This document shows positions 22,470-24,134 of a stretch of DNA of 64,000 bases, piece after piece. Under the pieces are notes generated by a model. It did no database searches. It saw only the letters and a list, made by a program, of their open reading frames with translations, and had not been told where the DNA came from. Position numbers and translations under genes: made by a program. Origin of the DNA: an uncultured Acidobacteriota bacterium (lineage in GTDB: Bacteria; Acidobacteriota; Terriglobia; Terriglobales; Acidobacteriaceae); NCBI GenBank assembly GCA_903832055.1, contig CAILAC010000012.1, positions 210,991-274,990 on the forward strand, read 5' to 3'. Every line of letters starts with the position of its first letter. Position 1 is the first letter of the stretch.

Positions 22470-24134
22470 CTAGCGCTTCAGCAGGTCGATAGGCTGGGTA
22501 AAGTCGGTGACACGGAAGTACTTAGCCAGGGCAGGATGCTGGCGCTGAACTCCGAGATACATCTCCCACGCCACCTTGCGGTAGCTGAAGTGGCCGGCAG
22601 GCCCACTTCGCAATTCTGAGATGTATTGTGCCTCCGCGAAGTCCATCTTGAAGAGCGAGCGGATGCGTGTCGCCAGCGGAAGCACGTAGAGCGCGGATTG
22701 GGCAGCCTCAGGCGCGCCGCTCAACGCGATCTGGCGGCTCGCTGCAAAAGCGGCATCCATCTGGGCGTGGTACTCCGGCAGAATGCCGGCTTCAGCCAGG
22801 CCGGCGGCGTCGCCTGATTCAGGCGTGTCGTAGCCGTGCAGCGATGTGAAGTCCTGAATGATCTGGGTGCAGCGACGATGCCGGTGCATATCGCGGAATC
22901 CACCAATATCCATCAGGATGTCAAAGCGCAGCGCGGCTCCCGCATGGAAGGCGCGCAGTGCTTCATCGTGGCGGCCGCGGTGGCGCAGTCCAATCTCGAT
23001 GATCTCGCTGACCCGCGCCTCGGGCAGCGCGGCCACCAGGTCGCGAATCTGGCGGTAAGAGTGATGGCTGGCAGAATAGAGCAGCGTAGCCGCCAGTTCC
23101 ACTTCGAGTGACTCAGTGCGCTCGACCAGATCAACGACTGGCGCAGAAGCAATTGGCGTGGAAGCGAGAAGTTCCCCGGCTGCCTGGGCGAGCTCAGCCT
23201 TGGTTTGCAGCTCATAGGGGTTGGGCTGAGCGTATTTCACCAGGGTTGGGGAGACGTGCACTTCGCGGGTGAGCACGGCCTCAGACTCGGCGGCAAGTGC
23301 GGGGCTGAGTGCAGCAATCCTCGACTGAAGTGCGGCGTGGTCCTCAGCATGGAGATTCCAGGCCGGGCCGGTGGCGGATTGCTTGAGCTTTTCGCCAAGA
23401 TCGCGAATCTCGGCAGCCGGGTGCGAGAGAAGGCGCGACACCTGCGTTTCCAGCGTGCGAGCGTTCACAATCTGTCCCAGGGAGGTATTGGTGGCCAGGG
23501 GCAGCAGGTAGCGGGCGACGTCAAAAGCGCGAGCCTTGAGGGTGCGCTCGTAGGCGTCCTGCTTCATCTCGGCTGGGCACGCCACCTTTTGTTTGAGCGC
23601 CTCAAACACGGCACCGGAGGTACTGGCGTAGGTGGCAAAGAGATCTTCAACCGTCTGGATATAGAGCTTCTTTGTCTCAGTTGCCTCGCCGAAGCTGGGC
23701 AGATACCAGCCGGATTTGAGGAAGTTCTGGTAGCGCGTCGAGCGCTCCTGCCCATCCCAGCGCTGTTCGTCTACCAGTACGATCGCGGCCAGCAGCGATA
23801 GCCGTTCAATGGCAAAGGCGACGTGCGCCAGGTCTGCGATGGAGCGATGACCGTATTGGAAGTAAAACGTGTTGAGAAACTGCTCAGCGCGCTGGGAACT
23901 GATCTCCCTGAGGGACTGGCGCATGGAAAGCGAGGAGCGCGAATACTTGGCCATGGCATAGGCCAGGACTTCGGGATCGGCACCGTGAACAGCGAATACG
24001 TCGGTCTCGTTGTGCGCGTTGGCGGGAATGGCAGAGGATGAGGCGGATGTAGACAAAGGAATCTCCGGGGACCAGAATACGGCATAGGCCTGTTGGAATT
24101 CCGGAAGGAAAGCAAAGCTGAATTTGCAAGCCAT
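22470..24134 (-). CDS. Double-domain ThyX-like protein (FAD-dependent thymidylate synthase family)
   Basis: A 554-aa protein built from two ThyX-like halves, whereas classic ThyX is ~220-250 aa and works as a tetramer. The first half has YGHRSIADLAHVAFAIE (~94-110), ERSTRY (~130-135, matching the SxRY end of the ThyX signature) and VNARTLETQVSRLL (~223-236). The RHR that normally opens the signature is missing there. The second half has RFDILMDIGGFRDMHRHRRCTQ (~403-424), where RHR is present but the serine/asparagine part is not. A single chain may therefore split the active site between halves. ThyX makes dTMP using FAD and methylene-tetrahydrofolate; activity here is not assured. The start could be TTG 24056, which has a better ribosome site. 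Confidence 0.75.
   Translation of the reverse strand: MACKFSFAFLPEFQQAYAVFWSPEIPLSTSASSSAIPANAHNETDVFAVHGADPEVLAYAMAKYSRSSLSMRQSLREISSQRAEQFLNTFYFQYGHRSIADLAHVAFAIERLSLLAAIVLVDEQRWDGQERSTRYQNFLKSGWYLPSFGEATETKKLYIQTVEDLFATYASTSGAVFEALKQKVACPAEMKQDAYERTLKARAFDVARYLLPLATNTSLGQIVNARTLETQVSRLLSHPAAEIRDLGEKLKQSATGPAWNLHAEDHAALQSRIAALSPALAAESEAVLTREVHVSPTLVKYAQPNPYELQTKAELAQAAGELLASTPIASAPVVDLVERTESLEVELAATLLYSASHHSYRQIRDLVAALPEARVSEIIEIGLRHRGRHDEALRAFHAGAALRFDILMDIGGFRDMHRHRRCTQIIQDFTSLHGYDTPESGDAAGLAEAGILPEYHAQMDAAFAASRQIALSGAPEAAQSALYVLPLATRIRSLFKMDFAEAQYISELRSGPAGHFSYRKVAWEMYLGVQRQHPALAKYFRVTDFTQPIDLLKR

Follow-up and report, generated by a model that had tools for sequence, protein, structure and literature searches.

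An acidobacterial gene in the window (the whole 64,000-nucleotide stretch of DNA analysed here) encodes a chain of two ThyX-like halves, each of which has kept active-site residues that the other has lost. We consider it probable (roughly 77%) that this gene is the thymidylate synthase of the organism, that it was duplicated and then degenerated in a complementary fashion, and that its double chains act in pairs, each dimer having two composite and two dead sites. An earlier note on this DNA had described a double ThyX-like protein with the signature divided between its halves, S.RY and NAR without RHR in the first and RHR without S.RY or NAR in the second. Both descriptions held: the Thy1 profile matched twice, each half of the structural model separately matched solved ThyX, and the division was kept in 159 double chains.

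Two ThyX halves in one chain

The Pfam profile Thy1 (PF02511) matched the window protein in two places, with 64.7 and 46.9 bits for the halves and 110.7 bits for the whole protein (E = 9.7e-32; cut-off, 24.8 bits). It was the sole Pfam match at E values up to 1, ThyA (PF00303) giving none. The NCBIfam thyX equivalog model TIGR02170 scored the protein at 43.7 bits, below its cut-off of 87.9 bits, which was passed by L210 (155 bits), a double chain of the subgroup termed T1c below. Comparison with PDB sequences by phmmer returned 0 matches up to an E value of 10. An AlphaFold2 model built from an alignment of 67 sequences had a pLDDT of 79.4 and a pTM of 0.83, with pLDDT below 50 at residues 57-77, 98-100, and 102-106, which are the GHxS and S.RY loops. 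Its top Foldseek match was T. maritima ThyX (1o28_D; E = 1.8e-4), and the C-half of the model matched T. maritima ThyX 3g4c with a Z of 8.5 and 3.4 Å over 157 residues. The features of the gene are given below; reference positions follow T. maritima ThyX (Tm), and a third ThyX was used to relate Mtb positions to them.

22470..24056, minus strand: double (split-site) ThyX gene, 528 aa, with a likely TTG start
24063..24066, minus strand: GGAG, from its sequence a likely Shine-Dalgarno element, 6 nt ahead of the TTG
23226..24020, minus strand: ThyX fold of the N-half (model residues 13-277; Z 12.0, rmsd 2.6 Å over 165 residues against Mtb ThyX 3hzg)
23841..23849, minus strand: H70-R71-S72 (GHxS), at the position of Tm T55 and Mtb Ser71; FAD contact, subunit B (role from the available part of PMC6514825)
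23730..23747, minus strand: E104-R-S106-T-R108-Y109, equivalent to Tm E86, S88, R90, and Y91; dUMP contacts and lid, subunit C
23511..23513, minus strand: R182, equivalent to Tm R147, which we take to contact the dUMP phosphate
23457..23465, minus strand: N198-A-R200, equivalent to Tm N163-R165; Mtb Arg190, subunit B
22485..23147, minus strand: ThyX fold of the C-half (model residues 304-524; Z 9.8, rmsd 4.1 Å over 159 residues against C. glutamicum ThyX 3fnn)
22875..22883, minus strand: R392-H393-R394, equivalent to Tm R78-H79-R80; FAD and dUMP contacts, subunit A
22608..22610, minus strand: R483, equivalent to Tm R174 and Mtb Arg199; dUMP contact, subunit A

The N-half (..YGHRSIADLAH..VDEQRWDGQERSTRYQ..NARTLETQVSRLLSH) has lost RHR and kept E.S.RY, GHxS, and NAR, and the C-half (..GGFRDMHRHRRCTQIIQDF..MDFAEAQYISELRSGPAGH) has kept RHR and lost S.RY, GHxS, and NAR. 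Neither half was canonical, and the RHR contact to the flavin was retained. Contact roles A, B, and C are all present in the protein, with RHR and R174 in the C-half and Ser55, Arg165, S88, R90, and Y91 in the N-half; Gln75 and the position of Mtb Arg87 are kept in neither.

Start codon and gene neighborhood

An open frame of 554 aa runs without interruption at 22470..24134 on the minus strand. The earlier note had taken the chain at this full length; the in-frame ATG at 24134 that it used is absent from the closest relative, L036. The TTG at 24056 is the more likely start, because it is properly spaced from the GGAG, aligns with the ATG of relatives (TTGTCT in the window, ATGTCC in relatives), and is kept in L036. 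This relative, the closest among the best 80 of 523 loci, matches from residue 3, and in 67 of these best 80 loci the match to the 554-aa version begins at residue 21 or later. Just upstream of the start, GTATTCT at window positions 24074-24080 is conserved (GTATCCT in some relatives) and may serve as a -10 promoter element, in which case the leader would be very short. The neighboring genes code for a convergent Crp/Fnr-type regulator and, on the opposite strand, for a DUF2071 protein and a short-chain dehydrogenase; the other neighbors encode an ABM-domain protein, a class-III aminotransferase, and an HDOD/EAL protein. No hint of nucleotide metabolism was found among the flanking genes.

The split is conserved in acidobacterial double chains

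Our alignment combined 34 canonical ThyX proteins, one of them from T. maritima, with both halves of each of 159 double chains from Acidobacteriota, the window protein among them. The doubles comprised the subgroups T1a (94 chains, window-like), T1b (23, L027-like), T1c (11, L210-like and nearest to canonical ThyX), and T2 (31, L006-like). Excluded from the counts were L073, whose frame is broken in the record, L109 and L151, which are cut at contig ends, L178, which carries a long insert, and the window duplicates L001 and L002; the interrupted canonical proteins L208 and L209 stood outside the 34.

S88 and R90 were present in all 159 N-halves, and R90 in none of the C-halves. Y91 was found in 156 N-halves (the remaining 3 having Phe) and 1 C-half, Ser or Thr at position 55 in 158 N-halves (1 gap) and 4 C-halves (T1c chains with Ser55), and R147 in 159 N-halves and 3 C-halves. 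Conversely, R78, H79, and R80 were each present in 159 of 159 C-halves, R78 occurring in 10 N-halves. An alignment-free motif scan placed S.R[YF] more than 150 aa ahead of an RHR in every one of the 159 chains. Since the pattern is kept in 159 aligned doubles and is recovered by the alignment-free scan, it is not due to chance. The combined pattern RHR..S.R[YF] matched 8 of the 159 chains, in 7 cases at another stretch that lies upstream of the motif. In the eighth, T1b_L162, the C-half contains RHR..STRY at a spacing 2 longer than canonical. RHR and R174 (role A), Ser/Thr55 (role B), and S88, R90, and Y91 (role C) were never gone from both halves, bar single gapped rows or rows with Phe91. 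Gln75, the Mtb Arg87 position, and R165 were gone from both halves in some subgroups.

Several residues depart from this scheme. R165 (role B) was present in 94 of 94 N-halves and 0 of 94 C-halves of T1a, in 23 of 23 C-halves of T1b (with Gln in 20 of the 23 N-halves), in both halves of T1c, and in neither half of T2; among the 34 canonical proteins, this position held Arg in 12, His in 10, and Gln in 10. An arginine near R174 remains in the N-halves of T1 (90/94 in T1a, 20/23 in T1b, 8/11 in T1c), one residue off register as judged by an alignment gap and by our reading of the model helices. R80 is retained in N-halves of T1b and T1c, and His at Tm 79 in 27 of 31 T2 N-halves. Gln75 is replaced by Asp in every T1a and T1b C-half and is missing from the N-halves of these subgroups. 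The Mtb Arg87 position (Tm 70) holds Arg in N-halves of T1c and T2, in neither half of T1a or T1b, and in 11 of 34 canonical proteins. The S88 column of the C-halves, which lies within a gapped stretch of the alignment, contains Thr in 87 and Ser in 2 of 159. In the 10 of 31 T2 C-halves displayed (e.g., L006, L007, and L008), cysteines are conserved in the elements ..C(F/Y/W)..AQ(E/D)E.., GPPC or LPPC, and C.EG..(F/Y)CG.., which suggests a metal site; none was seen in T1.

History of the duplication

A tree of the halves was calculated from 93 of the 352 aligned rows after removal of columns Tm 78-91 and of sparsely filled columns; the program warned of two long rows (can_L009 and T1b_L167_C) and six rows of odd composition. 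The N-halves (100/98) and C-halves (99/97) of T1 each formed one clade, and both clades branched in the mirrored order ((T1a,T1b),T1c). This mirrored order would most simply reflect one duplication before the split of T1a, T1b, and T1c, followed by joint descent of the halves. T2N joined T1N (95/88), and T1C and T2C joined at only 59/28; the alternative clades T2N+T2C (p-AU 0.28) and T1N+T1C (p-AU 0.44) were not rejected. T2 has lost its motifs with the same polarity as T1.

A proposed composite site between two chains

The Mtb ThyX site spans three subunits according to the available part of PMC6514825: subunit A contributes RHR and Arg199, subunit B Ser71 and Arg190, and subunit C Arg87, Ser105, Arg107, and Tyr108. 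In the accessible portion of PMC3498832, Gln75 and Arg182 belong to the same monomer and Ser88 comes from a different one, and a three-subunit interface is also stated in an excerpt of PMC5954106.

We derived the geometry of the double enzyme from these published contacts rather than from a model of the complex. Two double chains would come together as a ThyX-like pseudo-tetramer, to which each contributes one N-half and one C-half. In each working site, the C-half would provide the RHR arginines and the histidine that hold FAD, plus the arginine equivalent to Tm R174. One N-half would provide the GHxS serine to FAD and, in the subgroup of the window protein, also the NAR arginine, and the other N-half would provide Glu-x-Ser-x-Arg-Tyr, binding and covering dUMP. 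As the role-B serine and the role-C S.RY both reside in the N-half, a site takes two N-halves, which only two chains can supply. Each dimer would thus hold two complete sites, each made of one C-half and two N-halves, with the two other positions dead: in a D2 tetramer, the observed distribution would yield complete sites only with C-halves at A and D and N-halves at B and C, sites A and D then being complete and sites B and C dead. The double chain is predicted to form dTMP at the complete sites. The pattern of retained roles picks out this quaternary arrangement but is no test of it, since sites could also be completed, in another arrangement, by roles distributed differently.

Thymidylate routes in the genome and the phylum

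In the genome from which the window derives (4.57 Mb, 98.8% complete), a profile search matched Thy1 to the two halves only, and no profile match was obtained for thyA, folA, or thymidine kinase; thymidylate kinase (tmk) was present. The check for thyA or a canonical thyX in the same genome, which the earlier note had proposed, recognised neither. The double ThyX appears to be the sole thymidylate-making route of this bacterium. Among 61 genomes (its own and 60 relatives), Thy1 was matched in 54, thyA in 4 (1 strong), folA in 2 (1 below cut-off), and thymidine kinase in 16. A rarity of folA (2/61) would be expected of a split enzyme that makes no dihydrofolate, as is the case for ThyX; a DHFR match was present in the T. 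maritima control genome. G059, the only one of the 61 with a strong thyA, had no Thy1 match, and its strong folA adjoins a second, partial thyA match. G015, of the same family and 90% complete, gave no match to Thy1, thyA, folA, or thymidine kinase, a gap that may reflect either missing sequence or a host-dependent life.

We extended the survey to 247 Acidobacteriota genomes of at least 90% completeness, with strong thyA defined as over 300 bits. Thy1 was matched in 177 of them, twice in 126 and once in 51. Strong thyA was present in 60, and no genome had both (Fisher p = 2e-47, uncorrected for relatedness). Four of the two-match genomes were read as non-doubles: G143 and G230 have interrupted singles, G168 has a permuted ThyX, and the matches in G099 are pieces lying at two contig ends. 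This leaves 122 presumed doubles, part of which were read in sequence. Ten genomes had neither Thy1 nor strong thyA. Eight of these (G054, G092, G132, G157, G165, G197, G243, and G250) had only weak thyA-like matches of 28-46 bits, which may represent divergent thymidylate synthases or point to another route; weak thyA-like matches were also seen in 7 two-match and 3 one-match genomes. ThyA-like proteins of 340-360 aa scoring 63-88 bits occurred beside two Thy1 matches (G001, G156, and G172) or beside strong thyA (G293), and are possibly other pyrimidine C5 methylases.

Doubles on plasmids and in a phage

Relatives of the window protein are encoded by 523 stretches in genome_contigs. Among the best 80 of these, 79 come from records of Acidobacteria or acidobacterial genera; the other, L109, is labelled Rhodoferax and is perhaps misbinned. 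Doubles were also found on plasmids of Miltoncostaea and Euzebya (Actinomycetota), Parabacteroides (Bacteroidota), and Paenibacillus and Bacillus (Bacillota), where they are annotated as FAD-dependent thymidylate synthase, and in Tunturi_5, an acidobacterial phage of Tunturiibacter (44% identity). The phage gene lies beside a dCMP deaminase gene, and the Euzebya plasmid copy is 0.7 kb from dcd. All six plasmid and phage doubles examined (from 5 of 8 plasmid records and 1 of 15 phage records) had S.RY in the N-half and RHR in the C-half, two of them with RHN for RHR. The one C. difficile plasmid match examined, out of 12, and the Geoalkalibacter match proved to be single ThyX genes of 759 bp, and a scan of viral_contigs with a T1c protein found no relative.

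Unusual ThyX relatives

The double L178 (G068) shows the same split order and carries an insert of ~330 aa at the GHxS site of its N-half, between GHA/C and N/SVAEH. By eye, its Cys start and Asn/Ser end give this insert the look of an intein; an NCBIfam scan matched no intein model in it. L208 (G143) and L209 (G230) are canonical single ThyX proteins with an intein-like insert just after a KHR motif. In L209, the one of the two that was scanned, TIGR01443 (intein_Cterm) scored over cut-off, and an HNH-type model matched weakly. L171 (G168; a 471-aa frame on the minus strand), which was missed by the phmmer screen, resembles a double by its two matches but is by eye a circularly permuted single ThyX, its RFPRFVLSEFNTHRMFSRNASSSRA and FFTLR..AQPEI blocks preceding the ARVSY and GHWSPFEH blocks. 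L169 was a fragment. In G017, which also holds a double, L009 is a second, single ThyX-like protein with RNY for RHR.

Alternative readings

The earlier note had proposed that one 554-aa chain might be enough to build a composite active site. In favor of a composite site stand the strictly complementary conservation and the lack of another recognised dTMP route; the single chain gave way to the need for two N-halves. That one chain, with one N-half and one C-half, makes a site by itself, as a monomer with a single site, is unlikely. The two halves do share a chain, the pTM of 0.83 suggests that their relative placement was predicted with some confidence, and the role-B arginine (R165) is not consistently in the N-half; however, solved ThyX takes the GHxS serine and S.RY from two different subunits, and in the doubles both lie in the N-half only (save for the four T1c C-halves with Ser55), of which each chain has one. 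Decay of one copy into a pseudo-domain is a common fate of duplicated domains, and one half could in principle be such a structural remnant beside a full ThyX. The retention by each half, in 159 aligned chains, of invariant residues that the other has lost makes this very improbable. A pseudogene or sequencing artefact, for which nothing speaks except the doubt about the true start codon, has a probability close to nil: the frame is open, relatives are encoded by 523 genome_contigs stretches, and such conservation rules this reading out.

The double could also be a ThyX-like methylase that acts on a different substrate (PolB, a UMP/dUMP methylase, would be an example) or a protein without catalytic function; dTMP would then come from an unknown route. 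The window protein missed the thyX equivalog cut-off, and the parts available of the respective sources describe PolB (4p5a/4p5b) as a ThyX fold serving another pathway and C. glutamicum ThyX (3ge9) as dispensable for thymidylate synthesis. The earlier note had likewise considered a role other than thymidylate synthesis; it is not favored, since searches of the genome recognised no thyA, canonical thyX, or thymidine kinase. Moreover, strong thyA and Thy1 were mutually exclusive in the phylum sample, the dUMP-contacting S88 and R90 are invariant in the N-halves, and genes for dCMP/dCTP deaminases are located close to one phage and one plasmid copy. We thus rate another function as quite unlikely and retain the two-chain thymidylate synthase as our reading.

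Relation to known systems

Canonical ThyX/FDTS (TIGR02170 and PF02511; TM0449 and Mtb ThyX) shares its fold with both halves, has the motifs RHR, S.RY, GHxS, and NAR, and, with its three-subunit site, was the template for the composite one. The lack of recognised thyA and folA beside the double in the window's genome is likewise usual, if not universal, for canonical ThyX. Unlike canonical ThyX, the double has a duplicated chain, scores below the equivalog cut-off in the window, and never pairs RHR with S.RY in one half at canonical spacing; it is predicted to form two sites per two 528-aa chains, versus four per tetramer in the canonical enzyme.

The phosphopantothenoylcysteine decarboxylase Hal3/Cab3 of yeast (PMC9604783) embodies a similar idea, but differs in its unrelated fold and reaction, its separate genes, and its heterotrimeric form. 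Homologous subunits share its active site, the catalytic residues being split so that each retains a different part. PolB (4p5a), whose ThyX fold matched the C-half of the window model with a Z of 8.1, is a single-domain protein of a different pathway in what its source makes available. Valas and Bourne (2009, PMC3224940) mention, as uncharacterised, a domain-duplicated ThyX that serves Chloroflexi as the only enzyme for thymidylate synthesis; like the window protein, it has two ThyX domains per chain, and the accessible part of that paper holds nothing on active-site residues or complementary loss and gives no sequence. ThyX was reported in 6 of 6 Acidobacteria and ThyA in none (PMC5954106, with no duplication mentioned in the excerpt available). 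No description of complementary loss between ThyX halves was found in the full-text literature searched, which leaves aside most subscription journals and all bioRxiv preprints. The duplication is already in print; the split, obligately composite site, which conservation and genomic context strongly support, was found described nowhere in that literature.

It is a tentative and rather doubtful extension that such splits recur widely, that T1 and T2 are independent duplications of the same polarity, and that the dead sites have been freed for other uses, such as regulation by nucleotides or NADPH. The double itself clearly illustrates how two copies within a single chain can degenerate in complementary ways once duplicated. 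Plasmid copies are annotated as ordinary FAD-dependent thymidylate synthase, although neither half could operate by the mechanism described for ThyX. Mutation of a single role is hard in a homotetramer, because every subunit is hit at once; the double naturally separates the FAD and dUMP roles of ThyX into domains, each of which can be mutated singly. If the model is true, much of the Acidobacteriota (126 of 247 genomes with two matches, 4 of them explained otherwise) relies on an obligate composite enzyme to make its DNA.
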